A stretch of DNA of 64,000 nucleotides, taken from positions 1 to 64,000 of the forward strand of contig CASFDK010000027.1 in assembly GCA_949293415.1 (NCBI GenBank). Direction: 5' to 3'. A program made the translations under genes and the position numbers. This stretch comes from an uncultured Verrucomicrobiota bacterium (lineage in GTDB: Bacteria; Verrucomicrobiota; Verrucomicrobiia; Opitutales; Intestinicryptomonadaceae). This document shows positions 21,366 through 47,209 of this stretch, one piece after another. The first letter of the stretch is position 1; the number at the start of each line of letters is the position of its first letter. The notes under the pieces were generated by a model. That model did not search any database. It saw nothing but the letters and a program-made list of their open reading frames with translations, and was not told the DNA's origin.

Positions 21366-21427
21366 AATTGATTCAACCGCCCGATTTTGGAATAATCGGG
21401 TCTTTAAACAAAACAGGGAAAACATAT

Positions 21428-31714: not shown

Positions 31715-33883
31715 TTACTGATATTTACCGAAACCTTCGGCTTTTACCTTCCAATTCTTGGGGAAGGCGAGCGATTTTTTACCGAACGCGTCTGCGGGCA
31801 TTGCGTCCCAGCCGCCCGCGAGCATTGCCACCGCCGCAAGCACGCCGCCGTTCGAGGGAAAATACGGGCAGGGCCCGCCCCTCGCAACGCCGTGTTCGTC
31901 GAAGCCGAATTGTTTCGAGTCGGTCGTAAGAAAGTCGACCGCGCCGTTTGCGTCGCCCGTGCGCGCCGCCGCCATTGCGAGCATAGGGAAGTCCCACCCC
32001 CACACGCGGTCGAAATTCCAGCACTTTTTGATTTTCGCGAGCGTCGCGGCGACCGTCTTCGGGTTTGCCCCGTCGCCGCGCAACATTCCGTACACGCCGA
32101 TTATCGCGGGGTGCTCGAAGGCGTACTTTGTCCACATTTCTTGGATTCCCTCGTAGGTTTCGTATACGCCGTCCTTTACGGGAAGCGGCGCAAGCTTCTC
32201 CAAAACCGTCCTCCATTCGGCGGGCTTTTCCTCGCCCAGCCTCGACTTCCATTCGAGCGCGACAGCCAATCCGTATCGCCAGTAGGAAAGTTCGAACGTC
32301 GGATTTTTCGTCGTCAAAACATTCGTGTTTTCGGAGACGAGCGACATCGGCGGCTGCATATTGTAGCGGTCGGCAGACTTGTCGTATTCGGGATACGACG
32401 CGAGGAATTCCGCCGTTTCGAAAACGACATCGCGCCACTTTTCGAGCGTTGCGCGCGACGGGTTGTTTCGGTATTCAAGCTCGGCGTAGTAGATTGGATG
32501 CGGCTGCTGCCACAGGAGGGTTGCGTGGATTATGTGCGGCCACTCGTGCGGCATATTGCCCGTTGCCTTGCTCCACTTTGCGCCTCTGAAGCCTTCGGTT
32601 GCGGCGCGTTTTTTCGCGGTTTCGAGGTTGTCGGCAAACACCCGCCACTGCTTTTGCACAAGTTCGCCGTGCCCCCAGAGCACGAAGTGCACCGTGTGCC
32701 ACCAAATCATTTCGTAGTGGAATTTACCGTACCAACTGTTGGAGAGCAGCCCGCTTTCCTGCGGCGGCAGACTTCCCGCCGAGTTTATCCGCATAAGGTA
32801 TTGGGAAAGAACCGTGCGGCGTTCAAGCTCTTTTGCGCGCGGGTCGGCAGTCTGCGAAAAGTCGACCGCCGCGCCCGAGTGCCAATAGTTTTTCCATACC
32901 CCGTCCGATTCCGCCTTCGACTTGCCGAAATCGAAATTGCCCGCAACCTTTCCGTCTTTCGAAAAGTTGGCGAACAGTTTTATGTTGCCGCCGCGCGGCG
33001 CGAGTTCGAAGCGGTTCGGCTTGTCCGCCGAGCGCGAAAATTCGGCGTCGCCCACCCATTCTATCAGCACGAAATATTTCGAAGTGCCGAGGTCGCGCTC
33101 GATGACTGCGCGGTTTTTGGAAAGCGTGAGGTTCGAGGTGTTCGCCTCTGTTTTCTTGTAGTCGCCGATGTAAAAGGCATAGGCTTTGCCGTCGGGCGCT
33201 GGAAATTCGAAAAATATTTTCGTCTTTCCGTCGGCGAGTTCGGGGGATGAAATTTCGAAAACCGCAGTGTCGTCGCTTTGGCGGCAGAAGGTTGTTATTG
33301 CGAAATTTTTTCCGTCGAAATCGAACGAGCTTTTCGCCGAACCCGTGTAGAGGTCGAGCACCTGCTTGGCGTTCTTCAAGTCGGCTTCCGAGGCGGGCTT
33401 GCCGCCTTTCGAACGCATATCAAGCCCGATGCGTCCGAGGTTGAGCGCCGACGGATTTGCCGCCATCCATTGGGCGATTTGCTTTTGTTCGGGCGACAGT
33501 TGGAAATCGGGGAAATCCCTGCGCCAGAGCGGCTGCAGGCTCGGCTGAATCCTCATCGCCTGCAACATTGCCGTTTTGCCCTTCGACTTAAACGGAAAGC
33601 CCTTGAAGTCGTCGGGCGATTTCATGCAGGCGGGCATCGGCGCGCAGTACCAGCCCCAGTGCGACATCGTGTTGAAAGGCACAAAAGTCTGCATTCCCGT
33701 GATGTCGAAATTGTAGGCGAATTCGCCGTTGCCGACCTGCGCGGGGTTTTTGCAGGTCTTTTCGACGACCACGTTATGCCGTCCGACGAGCGACTTTCTG
33801 TCGATTTTTGCGGAACACCCAAGCCCCGCAAAAATCGTCAAAAATAAGTTGAGTATAGCAATATAGTGTACGGCGGTTTTCAT
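31715..33883 (-). CDS. Secreted GH65/GH95-like six-hairpin glycosidase
   Basis: The 722-residue protein has an N-terminal hydrophobic signal (AILNLFLTIFAGLGCSA) with a cysteine that could be a lipidation site, though the lipobox is not ideal. An N-terminal beta-sandwich carries NGEFAYNFDITGMQTF. The barrel shows WYGKFHYEMIWWHTVHFVLWG, with the conserved E in the first barrel helix, then NPTFELSYWRYGL and GYETYEG-like segments. This resembles GH65 and GH95 enzymes, which process alpha-glucosides or fucosides. An upstream in-frame ATG at 33913 exists, but 33883 gives the better signal peptide. It follows the biosynthetic cluster by only 43 bases and may be read from its transcript. Confidence 0.7.
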   Translation of the reverse strand: MKTAVHYIAILNLFLTIFAGLGCSAKIDRKSLVGRHNVVVEKTCKNPAQVGNGEFAYNFDITGMQTFVPFNTMSHWGWYCAPMPACMKSPDDFKGFPFKSKGKTAMLQAMRIQPSLQPLWRRDFPDFQLSPEQKQIAQWMAANPSALNLGRIGLDMRSKGGKPASEADLKNAKQVLDLYTGSAKSSFDFDGKNFAITTFCRQSDDTAVFEISSPELADGKTKIFFEFPAPDGKAYAFYIGDYKKTEANTSNLTLSKNRAVIERDLGTSKYFVLIEWVGDAEFSRSADKPNRFELAPRGGNIKLFANFSKDGKVAGNFDFGKSKAESDGVWKNYWHSGAAVDFSQTADPRAKELERRTVLSQYLMRINSAGSLPPQESGLLSNSWYGKFHYEMIWWHTVHFVLWGHGELVQKQWRVFADNLETAKKRAATEGFRGAKWSKATGNMPHEWPHIIHATLLWQQPHPIYYAELEYRNNPSRATLEKWRDVVFETAEFLASYPEYDKSADRYNMQPPMSLVSENTNVLTTKNPTFELSYWRYGLAVALEWKSRLGEEKPAEWRTVLEKLAPLPVKDGVYETYEGIQEMWTKYAFEHPAIIGVYGMLRGDGANPKTVAATLAKIKKCWNFDRVWGWDFPMLAMAAARTGDANGAVDFLTTDSKQFGFDEHGVARGGPCPYFPSNGGVLAAVAMLAGGWDAMPADAFGKKSLAFPKNWKVKAEGFGKYQ

Positions 33884-33926
33884 CCAAAGACGACTACCAT
33901 ACCCGTTTTTCATGCGCAACAATATT

Positions 33927-36371
33927 CTATTGCAGAATGCGTCCGCCCCGCGCGACAAGCATTGCGTAGTTGTTGCCCGTCGGACTGGATGCGAGGCACA
34001 TAACCAATTCCGGATTTTCGGGCAGGGGGGCGTTGTCGAACAGGGGAAGTCCCGTCCGTTGCCGCCAGAGTTTCCGCCCCGATTCGAGCGATTCGAGAGC
34101 GCACGCCAACGTGTGGAGCGCGGAAGCCGACTGCATATAGCCGGTGTCCAACGAAGAGGCAAGCATTGGCGCGCCCGCAAAGAGTTTGTCTCTTGCAAAG
34201 ATTGCCGCCGAATCCTGCGCGCACCCGCGCGGACTCCAGACAATCAGACCGATTTCGTCCGCCCGCACTTTTGCCGAATCGAGCGCGGACTGCGCCGCCC
34301 GCAAAAGACCGTCGTTGTCGAGATTGGGTGAATCGAACGCGCAGATGTCGGAAGTCGTCTCGAACGCCAGAATTTCGCCGAGAATTTTCGCGCCGCGCTT
34401 TTGCGCGCTTTCGAAATCCTCCGCGAGCAGTGCCGCCGCGCCCTCGCCGAGAACGCTCTTTGCGTACGAGGAATAGTCGAGTTTAAAATTCTCCTCTGCT
34501 TTGCCGGAATGGAGCAGCCCGAATTTTTCGTAAGCGTCCATCTGCCGCTTGTAAAGCTCGTCGGCGGCAACGGCAACGACACGCTCGGCGGCGTTTTCGC
34601 AAACGAGCCTCGCCGCAAAACCGAGAGCCGCAAGCCCCGAATTTTCGCCGCAAGTAAACGTGGTGTTCGCGCCCTTTATCTCGAGAGCCTTCGACACCCA
34701 GCCCGCCGTCGAGTTCGGCGTGATGTTCGAGAAGCATCCGATGTCTCCGCGCCGCTCGGGGTTCGAGAATACAGCCTCCATATGCGCGCTTTCGTCCGAG
34801 CCGCGGTAGGTTGCGAAGACAAGCCCAGTGGATTCGCAGTCGTTCCTGCCGATTCGCGCGCCCGCTTGGTCGAGCGCACCCTTTGCCGCGATTGTCGCAT
34901 AGGTGCTGATTCGGTTCATTCCGCCGAAATCGATGCGCCTGTCGAATGCGCGCAGATTGGGCAGCTCAACCGTTCCCGCAAGGCGTTCCGATTCGAAACG
35001 CGAAATTTTCGCGATGCCGCAACGCCCGCTTTCGAGCGCGTCGAGATTTTCGCCCAAACCGATGCCGAGCGGCGAGACAACCGAACATCCGCAGATTGCA
35101 ACGCGCGCGCCGCGTTTTGGCTCGGGCTTTTTGAAATCTTCGAAAGAGTCCTTCGCCACGACAACCGCAGCGTTGTTGCCCGCAAAGGCGTAGTTTGCCG
35201 AAAGGAAGCAGTCGTAATTTTTTTCGATTCCCGCGCCGCCGACCGCGCCGACTTCGCAGCCCTGACGCACGCCCGTATTGCGGAGCGTCGGCGGAATGAA
35301 ATTGTCGTTCATCGCAAGGAGCTGGCAGGTTGCCTCTATGATTCCCGTCGCGCCCATGCAGTGACCGGTGTACGACTTCGTGGACGTAACCGGAATTTCC
35401 TCGCCCGCCAAAATTTTCGCAATGCCCTTCGATTCCGACTTGTCGTTCGCAACCGTTCCCGAGCCGTGCGCATTTATGCAGCCGATTTTCCCGATTCCAA
35501 CGCCCGCATTTTCGAGCGCGTTGCGCATGGTTCTGAACGCGCCGTCGCCGCGCGGATCGGGCTGGGTTGGGTGGTGCGCGTCGCCCGTGATTGCGTGGCC
35601 TATGATTTTGCCGTATATTTTTGCGCCGCGTTTTTTCGCAAGGGTTCTGTTTTCGACAATCCAGAACGCCGCGCCTTCGCCGAGATTCATTCCCGCGGGA
35701 TTCGAGAACGGCGCGGTCTTTTCGGGCGATACAACTTTTATCGCGCAGAACCCCGCATAGTTCACGAGCGACGCGGCGTCCGCGCCGCCAGCCAGCACGC
35801 AGTCGAAGCGTCCCGATTCCACGAGCGACTCGGCCATCCCCAACGCCGCCGTCGCGCCCGAGCATGCCGTATTGACAAGCCAACACTCGTCGCCGATTTT
35901 AAGCGAGCCGACAATCGCCTTGCAGACCGCGCTGTGCTCGTATTGCGCAAGCGTGTTCGCATCGAACTTCGCAGCGGCGTCACCGAATTCCCGCCTGTAT
36001 TCAAGCTCGCCCGAATTCAGCCCGCCGTTGCAGGTTGCAAGCACCACCGCAGTACGCGCGGGGAGACCGTCGAAACCCGCATCGGCAACCGCCTTGCGCG
36101 CCGCCGAAATCGCGAGCCTTATGTAGGGATCTGTAAAGGTTTCAAACTCGCCCGCTGTCATCGTCTCTGAGAAGTCGAACGGGGGGCACTCGCCGAGCAG
36201 ATGCGACGCAAAGGGAGCGGTGTCGATTTTCGCCGCCGTTTTTATTCCATCGCGCCGGGCGCGCAGCGATTCGAGAATTTCCGCGCAGCTGCAGCCTATC
36301 GGTGTTATCGCGCCGATACCCGTAATTGCCGCCGTGATTTTTTCGCCGGTTGTATTTTTTGAAAATTCCAT
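33927..36371 (-). CDS. Two-domain ketosynthase: active KS fused to a degenerate chain-length-factor-like KS
   Basis: The 814-residue protein is a natural fusion. Domain 1 (about 10-415) has a complete C-H-H triad: C170 in NTACSGATAA, H302 in NAHGSGT and H337 in GHCMGAT. Domain 2 (about 422-810) has the thiolase fold but not the triad: the cysteine region reads TCGENSG so that the catalytic position falls on E576, the first histidine region reads VWSPRG, and the second is TGYMQSAS with Y745 in place of His. This KS-KSbeta pairing is the hallmark of chain-length control in type II polyketide and aryl polyene synthases, normally on two genes. It is the last gene of the minus-strand operon, 23 bases after the DUF3261-like gene. 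Confidence 0.85.
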   Translation of the reverse strand: MEFSKNTTGEKITAAITGIGAITPIGCSCAEILESLRARRDGIKTAAKIDTAPFASHLLGECPPFDFSETMTAGEFETFTDPYIRLAISAARKAVADAGFDGLPARTAVVLATCNGGLNSGELEYRREFGDAAAKFDANTLAQYEHSAVCKAIVGSLKIGDECWLVNTACSGATAALGMAESLVESGRFDCVLAGGADAASLVNYAGFCAIKVVSPEKTAPFSNPAGMNLGEGAAFWIVENRTLAKKRGAKIYGKIIGHAITGDAHHPTQPDPRGDGAFRTMRNALENAGVGIGKIGCINAHGSGTVANDKSESKGIAKILAGEEIPVTSTKSYTGHCMGATGIIEATCQLLAMNDNFIPPTLRNTGVRQGCEVGAVGGAGIEKNYDCFLSANYAFAGNNAAVVVAKDSFEDFKKPEPKRGARVAICGCSVVSPLGIGLGENLDALESGRCGIAKISRFESERLAGTVELPNLRAFDRRIDFGGMNRISTYATIAAKGALDQAGARIGRNDCESTGLVFATYRGSDESAHMEAVFSNPERRGDIGCFSNITPNSTAGWVSKALEIKGANTTFTCGENSGLAALGFAARLVCENAAERVVAVAADELYKRQMDAYEKFGLLHSGKAEENFKLDYSSYAKSVLGEGAAALLAEDFESAQKRGAKILGEILAFETTSDICAFDSPNLDNDGLLRAAQSALDSAKVRADEIGLIVWSPRGCAQDSAAIFARDKLFAGAPMLASSLDTGYMQSASALHTLACALESLESGRKLWRQRTGLPLFDNAPLPENPELVMCLASSPTGNNYAMLVARGGRILQ

Positions 36372-36394: not shown

Positions 36395-36910
36395 CTAACG
36401 GCGTTTTATTTCGCCGACAAAATCCAGCCCGAGGCGATAGTTTTTGTCCGATATTTCGATTCGCGACGGAACACAGATGCCGCCGATTTTTTTGTAGTCC
36501 GAAAATTCCATGGCGTAGCCGTCGGTCGATACCGACACCGTTTTGCCGTCCGCAACCCTTCGCACCACAACAGCTGAACCATCGAAACCGCCCAGCCCGA
36601 GCGCAACGCGCAAGTCGCGCAGAACAAAACGGCGCACAAGTCGCTCGGGCAGGATTGCGCCGCCGACACACACAAGCTCGCGCCCGTCGTCCGCCGATAC
36701 CGAAACCTTCGCAAGCGTTCCCGCATCGGACTCAACCGCCATATCCACCGCATTCCCGTTGCGCGCCACGTAGACCGTCAGCGGAATCTCCGCGCCGCCG
36801 TATTCCAAAATCCCGCGCTGAATGTACGACATCCCCGCGAAAGGCGAAGCCGCGCCGCCGAACGCGCAAACAGCCGCAAAAAGCGAAAATATCAAAAACG
36901 CGCACCTCAT
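36395..36910 (-). CDS. Secreted DUF3261-like protein of the cluster
   Basis: The 171-residue protein has a signal peptide (MRCAFLIFSLFAAVCAFGGA). The mature part is all-beta in appearance, with GYAMEFSDYKKIGGICVPSRIEI near the end. Position and size match the DUF3261 lipoprotein-like members seen in aryl polyene clusters, where they are thought to help product transport; the family match is by context more than by motif. Its ATG overlaps the LolA-like stop by four bases. Confidence 0.55.
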   Translation of the reverse strand: MRCAFLIFSLFAAVCAFGGAASPFAGMSYIQRGILEYGGAEIPLTVYVARNGNAVDMAVESDAGTLAKVSVSADDGRELVCVGGAILPERLVRRFVLRDLRVALGLGGFDGSAVVVRRVADGKTVSVSTDGYAMEFSDYKKIGGICVPSRIEISDKNYRLGLDFVGEIKRR

Positions 36911-37485
36911 TTTTTTTCGAAACCGAGAAAGTCAGATTCGTCGAACGCCGCCTGTGCATTTTGCGGATTTTCAGCCGCCGCTGTCGTTTTCAAAACCGTT
37001 TTGTCGCCGTTTGGCTCTTCGAATTCTATCGACCGCGGAATGTTTCCGCGCCCGTCGAGTTCAATGCGTATCGACTTTACGAATCTTGCCGTCGCCGAAC
37101 TTTTCGGAACGAGGACGACGGTTTTGCCGTTGCGCCGCACGGCGTACGATTCGGGAATTTCGCCCCTTGCAACCGCCGCGATTTCCGCCGCAATCTTGCG
37201 CACCTTTTCGGCGAAGCCCGATTCCAGTTTGCGCCACTGCCCCGAGATTTTTTCGAACCTGAATGCGCCGCGTCCGTTTACGATAAGCAGCGACTCGAAC
37301 GGCGAGAACACGCGCCAACGCACGTTTCCGCTTTCGTCGGCGACGATTTCGCACTTGCCGACCACGGGTTCCGCCAGAATCGAAACGAACTTTTGCCGCT
37401 CCATTTCAATGCACACAGTTCCGCCCGCCGCGAAAATTTCGGCCGCCGCGACAAGCATCGGGATTGGAGAAAGAATTTTTTTCAT
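36907..37485 (-). CDS. LolA-like outer membrane lipoprotein carrier of the cluster
   Basis: The 192-residue protein has a signal peptide (MKKILSPIPMLVAAAEIFAA). The mature part has the half-barrel pattern of LolA: RQKFVSILAEPVVGKCEIVAD, then WRVFSPFESLLIVNG and GRGNIPRSIEFEEPNGDKT. LolA proteins ferry lipidated cargo across the periplasm; dedicated LolA paralogues occur in aryl polyene and flexirubin-type clusters and are thought to move the pigment lipid to the outer membrane. Both ends overlap the neighbours, consistent with one operon. Confidence 0.72.
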   Translation of the reverse strand: MKKILSPIPMLVAAAEIFAAGGTVCIEMERQKFVSILAEPVVGKCEIVADESGNVRWRVFSPFESLLIVNGRGAFRFEKISGQWRKLESGFAEKVRKIAAEIAAVARGEIPESYAVRRNGKTVVLVPKSSATARFVKSIRIELDGRGNIPRSIEFEEPNGDKTVLKTTAAAENPQNAQAAFDESDFLGFEKK

Positions 37486-39599
37486 AGTTTTTTGAAAAGC
37501 GTAAACGCCCGCATCGAAGTGGATGAAATCGTGTAGAGCGCGCATATTTCCGCGCCGCCGCCGGAGCATTCGGCAAATGCCGCCGCCGAAACGCAGTAGT
37601 TCCCGCCGTACTTTTCGAAAGGCGAATCGAACGCGTCGAGCCCCGATTTTTCGGCGATTCCCGCGAGCCGTTTGCGTTGGTAGGCATTGCACGGCGCGGG
37701 CGAAAGCCAGCGTTTCACATCGCCGAATGCAATGTTGTGCCTTTTCAGGATTTTTTCGATTGCGTCGCATTCGGATTTGTCGGAGGCGGGGAGTCTGCGG
37801 ATGTCGCAGTCGAGAATCTCGAAGAGCGGCGCGGATTCCGCCGAGCCTTCCGCGCCGACATAATACGCCGCCGCAAAATCCGAGAGATTCGAACCGTCGT
37901 TTTCGGAATACTTCGAAGTCTTCAAAAAGTCGGCGGCAAGCGAGCAGTATTCGTCGCCCGCACACACTACCGCCGCGTCCGCACCGCCCGATTTTATTTC
38001 GCGCAACGCCTGCGCAAGCGCGGCTTCGAATGATATTTCCTTTGCCGTAACCGCGCCGTTCAGCCCGCCGAATTTTTCGCGCACGGCAATGGCGGACGGA
38101 ACCGCATTGTGCACCGAATTTGTGAACGCGGTCGGCATAGGCTCTGCTTCGCGCTTTTCGAGAACGTTTTCGACAAACGCGCGGGTCTGCGAGGTCATTC
38201 CCAGCCCCGTTCCCCAACAGACGGCGGTTCTGTTTTTGCAGGCAAGGGGCTTTGCCTGCGCCAAAACGTCTTTCGCCGCCTGAAGCCCCATTTTTTGCAG
38301 ATGCGCAAACTTGCGCGTTTTCAGCGGAGACTCGCCCGCGAGCAGCTCGCCGTCTGGATATATTCCGCCGTTTGAAAGCACCGCGCCGCCGTATACGAAA
38401 ATCCTTTTGCCGCCGTTCCGCGGCTTAGTCTGCGGGCGTTCGCGCGAAAGCACGACCGCGCCGTTGTTGCCGCCGAACCCGAGCGATACGCTGAGCACGT
38501 TTTCCACTTCGGCATTTTTTGCCGACTCCGCTGGATGCACGCCCGTACTTTCGTCGAAGTTTTCGAAGCCCGCATTCGGCGGAATCAGCGACCGTTCCAT
38601 CGCTTCCGCCGAGACGATTGCGTTGACGATTCCGCTTGCGCCGAGAGTGTGCCCGAACACGCGCTTGAGCGACGAGACGGGCGGAATTTTCCCGCCGAAG
38701 ATTTTCCGCAACGCCGCGCCCTCCGCCGAATCGTTGCCTTTCGTCGCCGTTCCGTGCGCGTTGTAGTACGAAATTTTTTCCGGCGCAACGCCCGCGCAAT
38801 CGAGGGCGTTTTCGAACGCCCGCGCCGCGCCCGCGCCGTCGGGCGAAGGTGCCGTTGCATGGTATGCGTCGCAAGTTCGCGCCCAGCCCGCGATGTAGGC
38901 TTTGGGCTTTGCGCCGCCCAGAAATCCGTCGGCGCAGAGAATCGCCGCGCCTGCGGCTTCGCCCAGATTTATTCCGTCGCGGTCTTTGTCGAAAGGTCTG
39001 CACTTGCCCTGCGAAAGCAGCAGCAGCGAGCCGAAGCCGTTTACCGTTATGCGCGAGAGCGCGTCGATCCCCACGACCACCGCCGCGTCGCACTGTTCCG
39101 ATACTATCGCGTTGCACGCCTCCGCAAGCGCGAGCGAAGAGCTTGAGCACGCCGTCGAGAACGCCGCGCATTCGCCGCGCGCGCCGCATTTTTTAGCCGC
39201 CAGTTCCGCGAGCGTCGAACACTCGTAGCCCGCGAGCGCGGCAAGATTTTCTGTTCCGTTTTTTTTGTTTTCGGCGAGCATATTTTCGGTTTCGAAAATC
39301 CCGCCTATGCTCGTGCCCGCGTAGACGAAAACCCTTTCGGGCGCGATTTTGGAAATGTCGAATTTCGCCAGAGCTTCGCCGAGGGCTGCGAACATCATTT
39401 CCGTACAGCGCGACCGTCCACGTTTTACGGCGATTCCGTCCGCTACCGAAACGAATTTTCCGCCGTGCTTGGGGCTTTCGAAAAGCGAAATTTTCGCCAG
39501 AGCGTCCGCGCCCGCAAACGCCGCATCCGTCGACGCTTCGAGCGTTGCACCCGCGCCCGAACAAAGCCCCGTCGCGGCAACTGCTACGGCGCGGTTCAT
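37482..39599 (-). CDS. Ketosynthase fused to a second thiolase-fold domain (Ketoacyl-synt_2 type)
   Basis: The 705-residue protein has an active FabF-like KS at residues about 1-390: C151 in STACSSSSLA, H282 in NAHGTAT and H317 in FGHTLGAS. Residues about 398-705 form a second, shorter domain with FTNSVHNAVPSAIAVREKF at 492-510, the signature of the Ketoacyl-synt_2 family found in aryl polyene, flexirubin and related clusters; at the cysteine position it reads TAKEISF, so it is probably not a synthase. In most known clusters the two are separate proteins. It overlaps the preceding ACP and the following LolA-like gene by four bases each. Confidence 0.82.
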   Translation of the reverse strand: MNRAVAVAATGLCSGAGATLEASTDAAFAGADALAKISLFESPKHGGKFVSVADGIAVKRGRSRCTEMMFAALGEALAKFDISKIAPERVFVYAGTSIGGIFETENMLAENKKNGTENLAALAGYECSTLAELAAKKCGARGECAAFSTACSSSSLALAEACNAIVSEQCDAAVVVGIDALSRITVNGFGSLLLLSQGKCRPFDKDRDGINLGEAAGAAILCADGFLGGAKPKAYIAGWARTCDAYHATAPSPDGAGAARAFENALDCAGVAPEKISYYNAHGTATKGNDSAEGAALRKIFGGKIPPVSSLKRVFGHTLGASGIVNAIVSAEAMERSLIPPNAGFENFDESTGVHPAESAKNAEVENVLSVSLGFGGNNGAVVLSRERPQTKPRNGGKRIFVYGGAVLSNGGIYPDGELLAGESPLKTRKFAHLQKMGLQAAKDVLAQAKPLACKNRTAVCWGTGLGMTSQTRAFVENVLEKREAEPMPTAFTNSVHNAVPSAIAVREKFGGLNGAVTAKEISFEAALAQALREIKSGGADAAVVCAGDEYCSLAADFLKTSKYSENDGSNLSDFAAAYYVGAEGSAESAPLFEILDCDIRRLPASDKSECDAIEKILKRHNIAFGDVKRWLSPAPCNAYQRKRLAGIAEKSGLDAFDSPFEKYGGNYCVSAAAFAECSGGGAEICALYTISSTSMRAFTLFKKL

Positions 39600-39859
39600 T
39601 TTTTATCCGCCAGAATGTAGTCGGCAAGCGCGCCGACCGACGCGAAAATCTTTTTCGTATCCGTGCTTTCGTCAATGCTTACGCCGTATTCGCGCTCGGT
39701 CATCACGACCAGTTCGAGCGCGTCCACCGAGTCCAATCCCAATCCGTCGTCGCCGAACAGGTTGGCGTCCGTTTCGATGTCTTCGGGCGAAACGCCCTTG
39801 AGATTGAGGGCGGCGAGGATTTTCCGTTTGATGTCTGCTGCAAGCTGTTCCCTGTCCAT
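39596..39859 (-). CDS. Acyl carrier protein of the cluster, copy 1
   Basis: The 87-residue protein has GLGLDSVDALEL with the phosphopantetheine serine at 44, flanked by helices 1 and 3. The D-G-L-G-L-D-S pattern and the YGVSID-type third helix set it apart from the housekeeping AcpP and match ACPs of aryl polyene-like clusters. The ATG at 39859 follows a 59-base gap from the acyltransferase gene; a longer open frame upstream is an antisense-like extension and is not used. Coupled by ATGA overlap to the downstream KS. Confidence 0.9.
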   Translation of the reverse strand: MDREQLAADIKRKILAALNLKGVSPEDIETDANLFGDDGLGLDSVDALELVVMTEREYGVSIDESTDTKKIFASVGALADYILADKK

Positions 39860-39918: not shown

Positions 39919-40776
39919 TCATTTCCAGAAGTCGTAAAAATTGAACCACTGGTATTTGTATTTTGTCGCGACCGACTGCAGGTTGCGCATGAATATCTGC
40001 GCGCATTCTTCGGGCGCAAGGTTCGCCGCGTCTATCGGCGGGAAGGCGGACATTCTGTATTTGAAAAGTTTTTCGCGCACGCAGACCGTCTGCACGACCG
40101 CCGCGTTTGCCGCCTTCGCGAGATGGTACGCCGCCGTCGGGGCTTTGACTTTGCCGCCGAAAAAATCTGCTTCGGAGAAACGCCCGCCCGCATACCTGTC
40201 GGCGTGCATCGCCACAATCGCGCCGCCCCTGAGAGCGGCATACGCTTCGATGTTCGCCGCCGCGCCGTAGCCGCCCGATATTTCGGGCTTGTCGACCTTC
40301 CGCATCGACTCGCCGATCGCGCGGATTTTCGGGTCTTCGTTGTCCACGCCCAAAACGAATACGCGCCTTCCGTACTTGAAAAGCTCCGCGCCCGACATCT
40401 CCCAACCGCCGACGTGCGCGGTAAGCACCACCGCGCCGCGTCCGTCCGCCAGAAGGGGCTCGAGAACTTTTCCGCACTCGTCGTCGATTTCGATTTTTTT
40501 GCTGCCGAAATAATACGCCGCCCTGTCGAGCAGGCACACTCCGAACGACATCAGCAGCTTGTATGTTTCGGGCGAGAACGCGCCGACTTCCCGACCGTCT
40601 ACGCGCGAGAGAAACCGCACGCCGCCCGCGCACGCCGCGCGCCTGAAGAACATAAAATATGCCGCCACGAAAACCAGCAGCAAATACGCGGGGAACAATC
40701 CCAGTTTCAGCAACAGCGCAAAACACTTGTTGCCGAAATATCCGCCGTAGCTTTTGCCCGTCCAGCCTCTATCCAT
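39919..40776 (-). CDS. LpxL/HtrB-like acyltransferase of the cluster
   Basis: The 285-residue protein belongs to the lipid A acyltransferase family: H121 and E126 in TAHVGGWE form the H-x4-E site, preceded by a single transmembrane segment (FPAYLLLVFVAAYFMFF). Later segments FVLGVDNED, GAIVAMHADRYAGG and YKYQWFNFYDFW are typical. In aryl polyene-like clusters such enzymes attach the polyketide or a fatty acid to a lipid headgroup. Its ATG lies eight bases inside the end of the exporter gene. A TTG at 40794 is a possible but weaker start. Confidence 0.82.
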   Translation of the reverse strand: MDRGWTGKSYGGYFGNKCFALLLKLGLFPAYLLLVFVAAYFMFFRRAACAGGVRFLSRVDGREVGAFSPETYKLLMSFGVCLLDRAAYYFGSKKIEIDDECGKVLEPLLADGRGAVVLTAHVGGWEMSGAELFKYGRRVFVLGVDNEDPKIRAIGESMRKVDKPEISGGYGAAANIEAYAALRGGAIVAMHADRYAGGRFSEADFFGGKVKAPTAAYHLAKAANAAVVQTVCVREKLFKYRMSAFPPIDAANLAPEECAQIFMRNLQSVATKYKYQWFNFYDFWK

Positions 40777-43144
40777 TTTTTTCCACTCCAGCAAGTTTTG
40801 CCGTCACTCCCGCAAGCAGGAATGTCGCAATTAAAATCGACGAAATCGACACCGCCGCCGCCGCGCCGATGCCGCGCAATACGGGATGCGACGAGAGCGC
40901 GAGCATTCCGAACGCCGCGACAGTCGTAACCGCCGACACGAGCACCGCCGCCGCCGCCCGCCCGCCGCCGCCGCGCGCCCTCGAGAAAATCGAGAACACT
41001 GCATAGTCCTGCGCGAGGCACACCGCGAAAATCACGAATACCGCCCCGACAATGTTTATCTTCATCTCTATTGCGCCGAAAATCCCGAAAGTCCAAAGCA
41101 GCCCAGCCGCAACGGGCAGCATTACCGCCGCCGCAAAACGCAGACTGCGCGTCAAAACGAAAATGTACGCGCCCGCCGCAAGCACCGCCGCCGCCGCGAA
41201 ATTCACAAGCCATTCGAAGCTCTTGTGCGCTATGTGCGAACCGAGAAATTTTGCGTCGATGTAGTTTGCAAACGGAAATTTTTTTGCGATTTCCCCCGCG
41301 AAAGCCGCTTTGTCCGCATCCTTCGGAAGTTCGACGGAAAACGAAACCGACGCGTTTTCGCCCGAAACCGAAAGCCTCGATTCGAAGAATTTTTCGAACG
41401 CGCTTCTACCCGCGCCGTCCGCCTTTCCACCGCGGTTCCCGAAGAGCGCAAGCGAAAGCGCGTTCGCGTTTATACCGTTTTCCGCCGCGCATTTTTTCGC
41501 CGTCTCCAGCGCGTCGGCGACTGTTTTCCCCGAGAGAAATTTTTCGGCGCGTCTTTCGTTTTCCACCGCCGTTTTTTCGTCGGGTAAAATCGGCGTTATC
41601 GGGAAAACTTTCGCGCCGCACGCCGCCGAAAACCTTTCGACTTCCGCGCAGCGTTGCTTTGCCTGAGCCGCGTTTATCCCGTCGACCACAATGAAAGTTT
41701 TCGCCAGCGCGCCGCCCCAGACTTTCCGCAAAGTTGCGTCGTCCGACTTCGAGTCCTTTGCGAGTGCGCCGAGCGACGAAATTTCGCCGTCGAACCCGAC
41801 ATTGCACGCAAACGGCACGGCCGCCGCACACAATGCCGCCGCCGCGAAAGCCGATTTCCCGCCGCCGCGCGCGGCATATTTCGCGAGCCGTTCGAATGCG
41901 TTTTCCCCTTTGCTTTCGACACCCGCGCCGACCGAAAACACGGGCATAACAAACACCGCGACCAACGCCGCAACGCATACTCCGACCGCTCCGAAAATCC
42001 CTATCTGCGCGAATCCCAAGCACCCCGACAATCCCATTATCGCGAACGCCAAGACGGTCGTTCCCGCCGTGATTGCAATCGGCTTTGCAAGGTCTGACGC
42101 CGCTCCGGCGGCGCGTTGCGGAGCGATTTTTCCGCCGCCGTCGAGCGCGTACAAAATGTGTACCGCATAGTCCACGCTAACCCCAACCGCAACCGACGCA
42201 AAGCCGATTGCGATTGTCGAAATTTCGCCGTACAACAGCGCGAGAACGCCGAACGCCGCCGCCGTGCCCACAAGCGAAGGCAAAAGCGCAAGCGGCGCGA
42301 GAATGCGCGCCGAGAACGCCGCAAAGCAGACGAGCGCGACAACCGCAACCGTTCCCGCGAGTGCAAGCGAGGAGTCGCGCGATGCAATCGCCGCGTTGTC
42401 CGCCGCGATTCTGTAGCCGCCCGCAACCGCGATTTTCGCATTCGGAAATTTCGCCGCAATGTCCGCCCGCAACGCGTCCACGCGTTCCGTCAGAGCCGCG
42501 CTTTTCTTCGAGTCGGCGGGGTCGAACGAACCTTCGGCAAGCACCAAGAAGTTGCCGCCGCGCCCGATTCGCCCGCCCGACAAGTCGGCGATTGCGCTCG
42601 TATCGGCAGCGGCTTTTAGCTTTTCGAAAAACGGCGCAAGCAGCCCGAGCGGATCGTTTTTGAGCGTCTCCACGGCGGACGCCGAACCGAACCCCGAAAG
42701 CCGTTTTTTCAATTCGAGCATGCGCTTTTCCACCGCCGTTTTTTCGAGATTTTTTTCGAGCGTTTTTTCGTCTTCGGCGGTGAACGTTTTCGGCGCGGCT
42801 GCCGCGGCTGCGCGGAACGCGTCCGCAAGCGAAAAATCCGACCCGCCCGTTACCGACGCTATTTGCGGAATTTTCCGAAGTCCCGCTTCGAGCGCGTCGC
42901 AGACTTCTTCCGCGTTTTCCCCCGAAACGTTGAAAAAAAGCGTTTTCGACTGGCCGAACTTTTTCGCCGCCGCGATGTGCGAGCGCACAATGCGGTCGCC
43001 CGACGGCACAATGTCGTAGATGTCGGAACGGAACTTTGCGCCCGATAGCGCGAGGAGCGAAACCGCCGCGAAGATTGCGGTCGCCGCCGCGCAAAGCCTT
43101 TTGTGCGCCGCCGTCCGGAGTACGAATTTTCCCGCGGCGTTCAT
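40769..43144 (-). CDS. RND/MMPL-type exporter of the cluster
   Basis: The 791-residue protein has two repeats of one helix, a large periplasmic domain and five helices, as in MMPL transporters. Marks are SVAVGVSVDYAVHILYAL in the first half, with the proton-relay Asp, and AVCLAQDYAVFSIFSRA in the second. Such a transporter is found in aryl polyene clusters next to a LolA-like protein and is thought to move the lipid-linked product out of the inner membrane. Alanine content is extreme, reflecting the GC-rich coding. Coupled by ATGA to the glycosyltransferase gene upstream. Confidence 0.85.
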   Translation of the reverse strand: MNAAGKFVLRTAAHKRLCAAATAIFAAVSLLALSGAKFRSDIYDIVPSGDRIVRSHIAAAKKFGQSKTLFFNVSGENAEEVCDALEAGLRKIPQIASVTGGSDFSLADAFRAAAAAAPKTFTAEDEKTLEKNLEKTAVEKRMLELKKRLSGFGSASAVETLKNDPLGLLAPFFEKLKAAADTSAIADLSGGRIGRGGNFLVLAEGSFDPADSKKSAALTERVDALRADIAAKFPNAKIAVAGGYRIAADNAAIASRDSSLALAGTVAVVALVCFAAFSARILAPLALLPSLVGTAAAFGVLALLYGEISTIAIGFASVAVGVSVDYAVHILYALDGGGKIAPQRAAGAASDLAKPIAITAGTTVLAFAIMGLSGCLGFAQIGIFGAVGVCVAALVAVFVMPVFSVGAGVESKGENAFERLAKYAARGGGKSAFAAAALCAAAVPFACNVGFDGEISSLGALAKDSKSDDATLRKVWGGALAKTFIVVDGINAAQAKQRCAEVERFSAACGAKVFPITPILPDEKTAVENERRAEKFLSGKTVADALETAKKCAAENGINANALSLALFGNRGGKADGAGRSAFEKFFESRLSVSGENASVSFSVELPKDADKAAFAGEIAKKFPFANYIDAKFLGSHIAHKSFEWLVNFAAAAVLAAGAYIFVLTRSLRFAAAVMLPVAAGLLWTFGIFGAIEMKINIVGAVFVIFAVCLAQDYAVFSIFSRARGGGGRAAAAVLVSAVTTVAAFGMLALSSHPVLRGIGAAAAVSISSILIATFLLAGVTAKLAGVEKNG

Positions 43145-43851
43145 TTTTTGAGCGCGATTTTTTTGAGCCGGCCGCGCGGAAGCAGCAGCGACTGGAAGTA
43201 GAGTTTGGTGTTCATCAGCGTGAATTTGAGCGTGTCCGAAAACGGCTTGTAGTGCGAACCGCCGATTGTGCTTTCGTCGTAGATTGTCGGAATCGGAATT
43301 TGTTCGAACCCGATTCCCGCCCACGCCGCCTTTACCAGAAGTTCGACCTCGAACACGAATCCGCCGAAGTCGAGCGCGAGCCTTTCGATTTGCGCAAGCG
43401 GATAACAGCGGAAGCCGCACTGCGTGTCGCCGAGCCTTTCGCCCGTCTCGCGTTCGAACCAGAAGTTGGAGAATTTGTTTAGGAATCTCCGCTTCGGCGG
43501 AATGTCGGGCGCGTCGAAATCGCGTATACCCACTATTATTTTGTCGGGAGATTTTTCGGCGGCGGATATGAAGTCGGGCAGGGAGGACGGTGCGTGCTGC
43601 CCGTCGGCATCCATCGTGACGACGTGCGTGAACCCGAGCTTTCCCGCGAAACCGAACGCCGCTTTCAATGCCTCCGCCTTTCCCCTGTTCTTTTCGAAAC
43701 GCAAAAGCCGAACATTTTCCCCGCCGACTTTAACTGGCGGATTAGAGCCGTCGTCGACGACCACGGCGCAGACGCCGCGCGGCAGCGACGCGACGATTCC
43801 GCCGAGCCTTTCGGTGTGGTTGTAAGTCGGTATTGCGACGCAAATTTTCAT
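43141..43851 (-). CDS. Family 2 glycosyltransferase of the cluster
   Basis: The 236-residue protein is a GT2 enzyme of the dolichol-phosphate mannosyltransferase kind: VAIPTYNHTERL, VVVDDGS, EKNRGKAEALKAAF and TMDADGQHAP (the D-x-D at 81-83), followed by the conserved DTQCGFRCYP. It has no C-terminal membrane domain. It should transfer a sugar from a nucleotide to a lipid carrier or to the polyketide head group at the inner face of the membrane. It starts the minus-strand operon; 107 bases separate it from the divergent ACP gene, and both promoters must lie there. Confidence 0.88.
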   Translation of the reverse strand: MKICVAIPTYNHTERLGGIVASLPRGVCAVVVDDGSNPPVKVGGENVRLLRFEKNRGKAEALKAAFGFAGKLGFTHVVTMDADGQHAPSSLPDFISAAEKSPDKIIVGIRDFDAPDIPPKRRFLNKFSNFWFERETGERLGDTQCGFRCYPLAQIERLALDFGGFVFEVELLVKAAWAGIGFEQIPIPTIYDESTIGGSHYKPFSDTLKFTLMNTKLYFQSLLLPRGRLKKIALKK

Positions 43852-43958: not shown

Positions 43959-44249
43959 ATGTCCGTAGATAAAAACAGACTGCAAATGCGCAGGCAAATA
44001 TGCCGAACGCTCAAGGAAAAGCTTGTCGAAAATCTCGACATCCCGTACTCGCCCGACGATCTCTCGGACGACGTTTCGCTTATAGGTTCGGGCTTGGGCT
44101 TGGACTCGCTCGACATCCTCGAGATTGTCCTGTGCGTGGAAAACAATTTTTCCGTCAAGATGCCCGAAAATTCCGCAGGCGTTTTGCGCTCGCTCAACAC
44201 CCTAGTAGACTACATAATTTCGCAAAAGGACGCACAATGCGCGAACTGA
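43959..44249 (+). CDS. Acyl carrier protein of the cluster, copy 2
   Basis: The 96-residue protein carries GSGLGLDSLDILEI with the phosphopantetheine serine at 50. It is the second cluster ACP, quite different from the first and from AcpP outside the serine motif, which suggests the two are loaded or recognised by different enzymes. AGAAAGAA precedes the ATG at 43959. It starts the plus-strand arm of the cluster and overlaps the GcvT-like gene by 13 bases. Confidence 0.9.
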   Translation: MSVDKNRLQMRRQICRTLKEKLVENLDIPYSPDDLSDDVSLIGSGLGLDSLDILEIVLCVENNFSVKMPENSAGVLRSLNTLVDYIISQKDAQCAN

Positions 44250-45313
44250 TTTTAAAGGATATATGGACTGCTGCGGGCGCGGATTTCGGCGCGCTCGGCG
44301 GCGCGCAGTGCGTGGCGAATTTCGGCGACGTAAGGCGGGAACTCAACGCCCTGCGCACTACCGCGGCCCTCTGCGATTTTTCGTTCTCGAAAATTTTCGA
44401 ATACGGCGAGTCCGACGGCATCGACTTTCTCGACACAAGGCTTGCGGCCAACATTCTCAAGCTCCGCTACGGCAGGATAATCGACACGTTTCTCGCCGAC
44501 GAAAGCGGGCGCATCGCCGCCGAAGCGTTTGTCGCAAACGCCGCCGACAAGGTTGTTGCAGTGTGCGAACCGCTTTCCGACGGGGCGGTTTCCGTTCTCG
44601 CCGAGCCGCCCGAAGCCGACAAAACCGCCGACCGCGTTCTGCTTTCCGTGGACGGACCCCTTGCGTGGCGCGTGGTGCGCGACGTTTTCGGCTCGGACAT
44701 TTTGAACCTTTCCGTCCTTTCTGTCGAAAAATACGACTTCGACGGCGCGGACGTGTTCCTTATGCGCAACGGCAGAACTGGCGAATTCGGCTACCAGTTT
44801 CTCGCTCCTGCATCGGCGGCCGAAAGCCTGTACGGAAAAATTTCGGCATCGCTCGAATCGGTCGGCGGAACGCTATGCGGCTTCGACGCTCACGCAATCG
44901 CGCGGCTCGAGGGCAATTTTTTCAACGTCTACGCCGAGGGCGCGAAAATCGGCTGCCCGCTCGAGCTCGGGCTGCAATGGATGGTCGATTTCGACAAAGA
45001 ATCGTTCGACGGTTTCGGGGCGATTTTCGCAAAGCGCAATGCGGGCGTGGAACGCACCGTTGTGGGCTTGAAAACCTCGGGCGCAATTCCCGAGCGCGCG
45101 GAGATTTTCGACGGTTCGGAGAAGGTCGGCGAAGTCGCCGTGTCGGCTGAAAGCCCGACGCTTTCGGCAAACATCGGCTTGGGGCTGTTTTCGAAGGAAT
45201 ATGCCGCGTCGGGTTTCGACTTTTCCCTCTCTCCCGATTCCCCCGCAACAGTTTCGACCGTCTCGCGTCCGTTCGTCTTTGCCGCGAGCCTCGAGCGCGG
45301 AATGGACGGGTAA
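44237..45313 (+). CDS. GcvT-like aminomethyltransferase family protein in the biosynthetic cluster
   Basis: The 358-residue protein shows the GcvT/YgfZ tetrahydrofolate-binding fold: TTAALCDFSFSKIFEYGESD, then LRYGRIIDTFLADESGRIAAEAF, and GRTGEFGYQFLAPASA, where GcvT has G-x-T-G-E-x-G-Y-E. CGFDAHAIARLEGNFF replaces the ARD-LR-E motif. It lies between an ACP and a ketoreductase gene and overlaps the ACP, so it belongs to the pathway and not to glycine cleavage; no gcvP or gcvH is nearby. It could transfer a one-carbon unit, or simply use the folate fold for another role. I cannot tell which. Confidence 0.7.
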   Translation: MRELILKDIWTAAGADFGALGGAQCVANFGDVRRELNALRTTAALCDFSFSKIFEYGESDGIDFLDTRLAANILKLRYGRIIDTFLADESGRIAAEAFVANAADKVVAVCEPLSDGAVSVLAEPPEADKTADRVLLSVDGPLAWRVVRDVFGSDILNLSVLSVEKYDFDGADVFLMRNGRTGEFGYQFLAPASAAESLYGKISASLESVGGTLCGFDAHAIARLEGNFFNVYAEGAKIGCPLELGLQWMVDFDKESFDGFGAIFAKRNAGVERTVVGLKTSGAIPERAEIFDGSEKVGEVAVSAESPTLSANIGLGLFSKEYAASGFDFSLSPDSPATVSTVSRPFVFAASLERGMDG

Positions 45314-45328
45314 TTTCCGACAGCAATT

Positions 45329-46087
45329 ATGGCACCGCAATTTTCTACAGGAAAGCCGCTCGACGGCAAAACCGCAATCATAACGGGCGGCTCGCGCGGA
45401 ATCGGCGCGGCTGTCGTCTCGAAATTTTGCGAACTCGGAGCGCGGGTCTTCTTCACATACGCTTCGAACGCCGAATCCGCGTCGCGCGTTGCCGCCGCAA
45501 ACGGGGCGGCGGCGTTCAAATGCGACCAGTCCGACCCCGCCGCCATCGACCGCACTTTCGGCGAAATCTTTTCCGTAGCGGGGCGCATCGACATTCTCGT
45601 CAACAATGCGGGAATCACAAAAGACGGCTTCATAATAACGCAGCCCGATTCCGATTTCACTTCCGTGCTCGAAACGAACGCCGTTGGGGCATACCGTTGG
45701 ACGAAACTGGCGGCGAAAAAAATGTTTTCGCAAAAGGCGGGCTCGGTGATTTTCGTCTCGTCCGCCGCGGCGGTCGTCGGCATTGCAGGGCAGACAAACT
45801 ACGCGGCGAGCAAGGGCGCACTCTGCGCATTTTCGCGGGCATTGGCGGCCGAACTCGGGCGCAAGGGCGTTCGGTCGAACGCAATTTGCCCCGGTTTCAT
45901 CGAAACGGACATGACGGCGAAAATTCCGCGCCAGCTTTCGCAACGCTATAAAGATTCGGTTGCGCTCGGGCGTTTCGGGCGCGCGGACGAGGTCGCGGAA
46001 GTCGCCGCATTCTTGGCTTCCGACGCGTCGTCGTACATTACGGGGCAGACCATTGTGGTAGACGGCGGCTTGACGGGCTGCTTCTGA
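45329..46087 (+). CDS. 3-oxoacyl-ACP reductase of the cluster (FabG type)
   Basis: The 252-residue protein is a classical short-chain dehydrogenase. The NADP site is TGGSRGIG (19-26), NNAG is at 91-94, and the catalytic tetrad is N116, S144, Y157 and K161 (NYAASKG). The end ITGQTIVVDGGLTG is FabG-like. It reduces the 3-keto group left by the ketosynthases. It starts 15 bases after the GcvT-like gene. It is the only reductive enzyme of the cluster; no dehydratase is present, so that step must come from elsewhere or not occur. Confidence 0.93.
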   Translation: MAPQFSTGKPLDGKTAIITGGSRGIGAAVVSKFCELGARVFFTYASNAESASRVAAANGAAAFKCDQSDPAAIDRTFGEIFSVAGRIDILVNNAGITKDGFIITQPDSDFTSVLETNAVGAYRWTKLAAKKMFSQKAGSVIFVSSAAAVVGIAGQTNYAASKGALCAFSRALAAELGRKGVRSNAICPGFIETDMTAKIPRQLSQRYKDSVALGRFGRADEVAEVAAFLASDASSYITGQTIVVDGGLTGCF

Positions 46088-46129: not shown

Positions 46130-47209
46130 CTACATTTGCGATTGCGGTTTTGCGGGCGAGTCCGAATAGTCGTCGGCAGTCGCCGCGCCGCGGAAGCTTC
46201 CGCTCCAGTTTATCAACGCCGAGCCCCACGAAAGCCCCACGCCGAACGCGCAGACAACGACTTTCATCCCCGCCTTCAGCACGCCGTGCGCCGCCGCGTC
46301 GGCAAGGGCGATAGGCGCGCTCGCCCCGCCGCAGTTGCCGATGTCGTGCATTTTAAAATGGAGCTTCGAGCGCGGAATTTTCAGACGCTTCGCCGCCGCC
46401 GATACAATCATTTCGCCCGCCTGATGGAACACGAAAAGGTCGATGTCGTCCACCGAAAGACCGTTTTTTCCGAGCAGCCTATTCACGCTCTGCGGAACGG
46501 TTTTATAGGCGAAGGCGAAAATTTTCAGCCCGTCGATTTTCATATTCGCGTTCGTGCGCACGTTCCCGTTTTCGTCGCGGTATTCCTCGAAGTCCTCGGG
46601 CTTTGGAGGGTTGCGCATACCCGAAGTCGGGCAGATTAAATCGGCGAACCCCGCGCCGTTCGTGCCGAAATCGAAATCGACAATCGAATTTTCGTCGGAA
46701 CGTTCAACGACCGCCGCCGCCGCCGCATCGCCGAAAAGCGATACCGCGCTTTTGTCGAGCGGATGTATGAGGCGCGAGGGCGTGTCGGCGGTTATCACGA
46801 GGGCTTTTTTTGCAAGCCCCGAATTTATCCACGCCGCCGCAGTCGCCAGCGAGTAGGGGAATTGCGAACATCCCAAATTTACGTCGAACGCCGCGCAGGT
46901 TTTGCGCAGTCCGAGCCTGTCCTGCATAATGCAGGCGGTCGACGGCATTGCGTAGTCGGGCGTTTGGGTCGCGAAAACCAACAGGTCGAAGTCTTCCGGA
47001 GCTGCGAGCTTTTCGCGTCCGAGCAGCCGCACGGCTTTCTCCGCCAAGTCCGACGCGCAGGTTTTCGAATCAACCACCCTGCGCTGCCAAATACCCGACA
47101 TCTCGGCGATTTTGTCCGCCGTCTCCGCGCCGAGACGTTCGCGCAGCATTCCGTGCGTGAACCTGTTTTCGCCCGTGGCGTACGCGATTGCCGTGATTGC
47201 CGCGTTCAT
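46130..47209 (-). CDS. KASIII-like 3-oxoacyl-ACP synthase of the cluster
   Basis: The 359-residue protein has the FabH-type triad: C114 in VNLGCSQFPYS, H262 in FVFHQAG and N292 in DIGNCGGAS. It starts chains from an acyl-CoA or acyl-ACP, or joins two chains as in resorcinol synthases. The substrate channel is not deducible. It is convergent with the ketoreductase gene, 42 bases away, and lies 20 bases downstream of the beta-helix lipoprotein gene on the same strand. The long upstream open frame (to 47674) lies antisense-like within that gene and is ignored; the ATG at 47209 matches the FabH start. Confidence 0.85.
   Translation of the reverse strand: MNAAITAIAYATGENRFTHGMLRERLGAETADKIAEMSGIWQRRVVDSKTCASDLAEKAVRLLGREKLAAPEDFDLLVFATQTPDYAMPSTACIMQDRLGLRKTCAAFDVNLGCSQFPYSLATAAAWINSGLAKKALVITADTPSRLIHPLDKSAVSLFGDAAAAAVVERSDENSIVDFDFGTNGAGFADLICPTSGMRNPPKPEDFEEYRDENGNVRTNANMKIDGLKIFAFAYKTVPQSVNRLLGKNGLSVDDIDLFVFHQAGEMIVSAAAKRLKIPRSKLHFKMHDIGNCGGASAPIALADAAAHGVLKAGMKVVVCAFGVGLSWGSALINWSGSFRGAATADDYSDSPAKPQSQM

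Follow-up and report, generated by a model that had tools for sequence, protein, structure and literature searches.

A covalently fused ketosynthase and triad-less partner domain in an aryl-polyene-like gene cluster of a gut Opitutales bacterium

The fused gene and its cluster

The DNA analyzed here (hereafter, the window) is a 64,000-nucleotide stretch of a contig from a gut Opitutales bacterium. Its sequence holds a single uninterrupted frame of 814 codons on the minus strand, at exactly 33927–36371 with the stop codon included, which encodes an 814-aa protein consisting of a ketosynthase (KS) and a second, KSbeta-like domain. Domain 1 (KS1; aa 10–409, 35145–36344, minus strand) is a FabF-like ketosynthase (Pfam PF00109/PF02801; ketosynthase match at ~aa 15–363). 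A short linker (~aa 408–421, 35109–35150, minus strand), similar in length in all orthologues, leads into domain 2 (D2; aa 422–814, 33930–35108, minus strand), which has KS-type sequence without the catalytic triad. Two stretches of the protein match FabF-type NCBIfam models, PRK06519 matching best at aa 422–763. The chain stops with D2 and has none of the FabA-like dehydratase domains that follow the KS and chain length factor (CLF) in PfaC.

KS1 carries a complete set of active-site motifs: NTACSG (C170, 35862–35864), NAHGSG (H302, 35466–35468), and TSTKSYTGH (K332 and H337, the latter at 35361–35363). This triad, together with K332 and the gating residue F396, is invariant in all 23 orthologues. 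D2 reads TCGENSG with E576 (34644–34646) at the cysteine position, VWSPRG (S713-P714, 34230–34235) in place of NAHG, and TGY with Y745 (34137–34139) in place of GH, so that its catalytic columns hold E576, S713, and Y745. Translation and alignment reproduced these readings exactly as a preliminary description of the locus had given them. When D2 was aligned jointly with FabF, Streptomyces KS-alpha and CLF, ApeO, and ApeR, its three motifs lined up with the catalytic columns and the register was unshifted, which rules out catalytic residues at shifted positions. The D2 columns never read Cys/His/His in the 23 orthologues, and the cysteine column is without Cys in every one: it holds Pro (n = 9) or His (n = 7) in 16 of them, Leu in two, and Glu, Gln, Ser, Ala, and Tyr in one each. 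The glutamate at 576 is thus private to the window protein; what the orthologues conserve is the lack of a triad.

The fused gene stands at the end of a cluster that spans 33927 to ~47209. Beside it, also on the minus strand, are genes for a secreted 171-aa protein with weak LolB/DUF6544 similarity that is syntenic in relatives (36395–36910), a LolA-like periplasmic carrier (36907–37485), a second fusion of 705 aa (37482–39599), acyl carrier protein (ACP) 2 (39596–39853; PF00550), a lipid A-type acyltransferase (39919–40794; PF03279), an MMPL-family exporter (40769–43144), and a family 2 glycosyltransferase (GT2; 43141–43851). The plus strand encodes ACP 1 (43959–44249), which has a GLGLDSLDILE motif and matches the divergent ACP of relatives, a GcvT-like protein of the aminomethyltransferase fold (44237–45313), and a FabG-type ketoreductase (45329–46087); a FabH-type KS III follows on the minus strand (46130–47209). 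The start codons of the exporter and the KS III are our choice. Gene order from GT2 to the KS-KSbeta gene is conserved across the genus, as is the 705-aa fusion. The GcvT-like protein is kept beside an ACP and FabG across phyla (for example, at L036 1850–2935 and L060 11606–12760). Flanking the cluster are several genes for GH95/GH65-like glycosidases, as is typical for the use of mucin or polysaccharides (19113–23647, plus strand; 31715–33922, minus strand).

The 705-aa protein joins an ApeO-type KS (aa 1–388) to an ApeC-like half domain (aa ~393–705). Its KS groups with E. coli ApeO (support 100/98) in a tree of 54 rows that included two Streptomyces CLFs, and its half domain shares the SVHN motif with E. 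coli ApeC and scores 23.8 bits against PF13723, just below the cut-off of 25. This neighbor is the counterpart of ApeO/ApeC in fused form, and each of the cluster's two condensing enzymes is therefore fused to an inactive partner. The aryl polyene cluster of E. coli CFT073 comprises MMPL, LolA, GT2, acyltransferase, two ACPs, ApeO, ApeR, and ApeC; compared with aryl polyene clusters, that of the window differs in the fusion of both condensing enzymes and in the additional GcvT-like gene. Among the window cluster genes scanned, none was recognized as coding for a dehydratase (hot-dog types included), an ammonia-lyase-like enzyme, or an acyl-CoA ligase, and no aryl starter pathway was recognized either; without a recognized dehydratase a polyene product is not assured.

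Conservation and descent of the two domains

Across Opitutales, Fibrobacterota, Omnitrophota, and Victivallales, 23 orthologues retain the KS1-D2 fusion, and 12 relatives from the window's genus and family have the long fused frame. A D2 profile search of related loci returned 23 loci, 22 of which had the two domains in a single frame, the remaining locus being cut by a contig end. In a scan of genome contigs with two peptide patterns, which diverged standalone forms could escape, all non-truncated D2 domains lay behind a KS in one frame and no standalone D2 was found; D2 occurred in four of 388 Verrucomicrobiota genomes, each time in a frame of 812–1157 aa. We rejected an assembly fault, a frameshift fusion, or chance as the origin of the gene because 22 other species have the fused frame.

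Between the window protein and its nearest relative, dN is 0.23 for KS1 and 0.27 for D2 at a dS of ~2.1–2.3, which is near saturation, indicating that selection holds D2 about as tightly as KS1. D2 is under purifying selection and nearly as constrained as its catalytic neighbor. Pairwise distances of KS1 and D2 are correlated (r = 0.89, 253 pairs), as expected for one gene and with a contribution from shared species history. These data bear on whether D2 could be a decaying, functionless duplicate. All three of its catalytic residues are lost, and in one member of the genus (genome G009) the KS1 part of the frame is degraded too: its 556-aa relative (L049 6575–8245) has a shortened KS1 half without the triad and retains the D2 motifs. 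Decay is nonetheless scarcely credible for a domain whose constraint is near that of KS1, that is full-length across several phyla, and whose sister D2 is present in the second fused protein of Fibrobacterota and Victivallales. Two further KS genes of G009 lie on a different contig (L050).

In the 54-row tree, the KS1 domains of the 814-aa family form one clade, which is sister to the KS of the second fused protein encoded next door in Fibrobacterota and Victivallales and does not group with ApeO; the D2 domains likewise form one clade, sister to the second domain of that same neighboring fusion. The simplest interpretation of these mirrored topologies is that a single ancestral KS-D2 pair or fusion would have been duplicated later. 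A recent internal duplication giving rise to KS1 and D2 was rejected, as joining the two domains in one clade costs 90 lnL units (p-AU 4e-6). D2 and the Streptomyces CLFs fall on one side of a branch with support of 89/88, and both of their own branches are long. The earlier likening of D2 to a CLF therefore stands in one respect, in that D2 is triad-less like the Streptomyces CLFs and has a full KS fold in the models described below; as regards common descent, this grouping neither establishes nor contradicts it.

Predicted fold and domain packing

An AlphaFold2 model of D2 alone (mean pLDDT 91.8, pTM 0.93) shows strands and helices alternating in the complete KS-like pattern, and D2 is similar to solved KSs along almost its whole length (profile matches up to 9e-45), supporting a complete thiolase-type KS fold as the predicted structure of the domain; the lack of such a fold had been named as grounds for dropping the CLF comparison. 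Modeled as a whole chain, in a monomer prediction from 23 aligned rows, the protein reached a pTM of 0.92 and a mean pLDDT of 89.2. The top Foldseek match of this model in the PDB was 6riw, the single-chain KS-CLF of PfaC (E 2.2e-46), aligned over 912 columns and nearly the whole chain with a TMq of 0.79, an rmsd of 6.2, and 16% identity, compared with TMq values of 0.44–0.46 for the single-domain KSs among the matches listed. PDB 6riw is absent from the best 60 sequence matches. VIA-align matched only the KS1 half of the whole-chain model, best to the ishigamide KS (6kxf_A; Z 49, rmsd 2.0, 388 residues aligned), which is itself one half of a KS-CLF. By sequence, the PDB chain that KS1 matches best is chain B of 9s5h; this entry and 9s5i each have two KS chains, B and C, that differ from one another.

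The confident whole-chain model and the near-whole-chain match to PfaC together predict that KS1 and D2 pack as an intramolecular KS-CLF pair, with D2 contacting the active KS1 through the KS dimer face. The suggestion that the domains might pack like a KS-KSbeta heterodimer is thus borne out at the level of a structural model. FabF- and FabB-type KSs are homodimers, which counts for an alternative arrangement in which the fused chains would homodimerize through KS1:KS1 and D2:D2 contacts and work as a tandem enzyme in which no heterodimer would form within a chain; a monomer prediction, moreover, does not address assembly between chains. We regard this arrangement as quite improbable given the confidence of a model in which the two domains adopt a KS-CLF-like arrangement, and given a linker that is short throughout the orthologues.

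A different possibility is that D2 runs a non-KS reaction of its own, or serves as a docking or loading platform for ACPs, through newly conserved residues. W712, P714, G716, Q719, D720, T743-G744-Y745, and H530-M531 are invariant or nearly so across the 23 orthologues although the triad is gone, and a purely structural partner need not keep the old active-site loops. On the other side, the conserved loops may be structural, the cysteine position varies freely among eight residues, and the whole-chain fold match is to a KS-CLF; we consider such a role unlikely.

Comparison with known systems and proposed function

The preliminary description contrasted the window protein with CLFs known as separate proteins that dimerize with a KS. 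That contrast fails because KS-CLF fusions are known in PfaC of the polyunsaturated fatty acid (PUFA) synthases, the structure of which has been solved, and in thraustochytrid PfaB (PMC9702510, PMC12895367). The KS-CLF didomain of PUFA synthases elongates chains of specific lengths (PMC9702510), and the didomain structure 6riw is attributed to Santin et al. 2020 as cited there. PfaC resembles the window protein in having a KS and an inactive CLF in one chain, and it is the best fold match over nearly the whole chain. PfaC is, however, part of a multidomain, type I-like synthase, whereas pairs of the window type are either independent, with free ACPs encoded nearby, or preceded by a B12-radical-SAM domain.

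The other comparisons are with type II systems. Aryl polyene clusters need two condensing KSs, ApeO-ApeC and ApeR, and their KS-CLF pairs are separate proteins with a half-size CLF (PMC8358021). ApeO-ApeC is like the window protein in combining a KS and an inactive partner within a cluster of similar make-up; unlike the separate, half-length ApeC, D2 is fused, full-length, and without a PF13723 match. In Streptomyces CLFs, the columns that have lost Cys and the two His residues coincide with those of D2 and read Q, ADAA, and GR. The actinobacterial type II KS-alpha and CLF are separate proteins with a Cys-to-Gln change that D2 does not share, and D2 is only weakly grouped with the CLFs. KS1 also aligns with the NCBIfam model of PigJ, from prodigiosin biosynthesis (759 aa), at profile positions 496–704, which suggests an additional N-terminal domain in PigJ; the score was 68.9 bits against a cut-off of 900. 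If PigJ is a two-KS protein, its domain order would be the reverse of that in the window protein, with the active half C-terminal.

We propose that KS1 and D2, covalently joined in a KS-CLF-like enzyme, form an intramolecular pair that acts in an aryl-polyene-like export pathway, a reading that we hold to be probable. KS1 would use its Cys-His-His triad to condense ACP-bound acyl chains with malonyl-ACP, and D2, its catalysis lost, would pack on the KS dimer face as the pseudo-heterodimer partner within the same chain. By analogy with PfaC and the type II KS-CLF pairs, we infer that D2 probably helps to form the acyl tunnel at its far end and in this way restricts chain length. The ACPs, the FabG-type reductase, and the FabH-type starter enzyme of the cluster would be its partners, and the 705-aa KS/ApeC-like fusion may carry out a complementary elongation, a division of labor modeled on that of ApeR and ApeO-ApeC. 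The pathway may be an aryl-polyene-like one with a membrane-exported lipid or polyketide as its product.

Radical SAM-fused relatives in other phyla

In all 12 of the non-Opitutales orthologues, which come from Omnitrophota, Fibrobacterota (Chitinivibrionales among them), and Victivallales, and in three from Opitutales, a B12-radical-SAM (rSAM) domain is fused in front of KS1-D2, giving proteins of ~1,250 aa in total. The N-terminal domain measures ~430 aa, is in frame, and matches B12-binding and radical SAM models (scanned on the Opitutales locus L038); a CxxxCxxC motif was read in 14 of the 15 rSAM-fused proteins, the fifteenth (L066) lying outside the filter of the script. The fusions include L055 7469–11182, L057 4571–8293, and L059 7469–11188, and are also present at L060–L067, L069, and L072–L074. 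One lies on a 1.77-Mb contig of Puniceicoccaceae bacterium Marseille-Q1082. The window's own lineage is without the fused domain, and a search of the window genome for an rSAM domain homologue elsewhere gave no match at 1e-30. On a tree of 23 full-length pairs, the presence and absence of the domain require three changes. Since all 12 non-Opitutales proteins have it, the simplest reading is an ancestral rSAM-KS-KSbeta protein that would have lost the domain in the window's lineage, with an inferred root and direction of change.

In many of these phyla, genes for a second KS-KSbeta' fusion, an ACP, a GcvT-like protein, and FabG follow downstream. Tandem KS-KSbeta' fusions of ~770–800 aa lie directly downstream at L062 11194–13500, L066 10376–12703, L067 11185–13500, L072 5992–8367, L073 11173–13542, and L074 11068–13485. 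A 4HBT hot-dog protein is encoded at L060 and L073, loci from Omnitrophota and Fibrobacterota, and a FabD-like acyltransferase at L060 and L067. Under the tentative broader reading given below, the operon type would consist of rSAM-KS-KSbeta, in many cases a second KS-KSbeta', ACP, GcvT-like, 4HBT, FabG, and FabD-like genes.

The nearest thematic parallel is provided by the ladderane fatty acid synthesis clusters of anammox bacteria, where FabF paralogues without catalytic residues stand beside radical SAM genes, one of them with a B12 domain (PMC2649909); there, in contrast to the fused relatives, these are separate genes. Assignment to a ladderane system was rejected, as the rSAM domain scores 57 bits against the ladderane model TIGR04072, which has a cut-off of 360. 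The fusion suggests a modification of the chain in physical coupling to condensation. Searchable papers yielded no description of such coupling, nor did the searchable literature describe rSAM-KS fusions or ladderane KS heterodimers. A broader reading, which we put forward tentatively as somewhat doubtful, places the window protein as a shortened form within an rSAM-KS-KSbeta family that spans phyla. In that family, the rSAM domain would modify the chain on the ACP or the KS between rounds of elongation, for instance by C-methylation or cyclization, within a distinct operon for an undescribed lipid or polyketide of anaerobes.

Although KS-CLF fusion is already known from PfaC, the fusion in the window is real, under selection, and located outside a megasynthase. 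A natural KS-CLF of this kind, in a single polypeptide with a fixed 1:1 ratio, would allow the way an inactive partner sets chain length to be studied. The rSAM-fused relatives are more surprising. They point to a so far unstudied family of pathways for lipids or polyketides, whose clusters are found in gut and sediment anaerobes, organisms with lipids and polyketides that are little explored.
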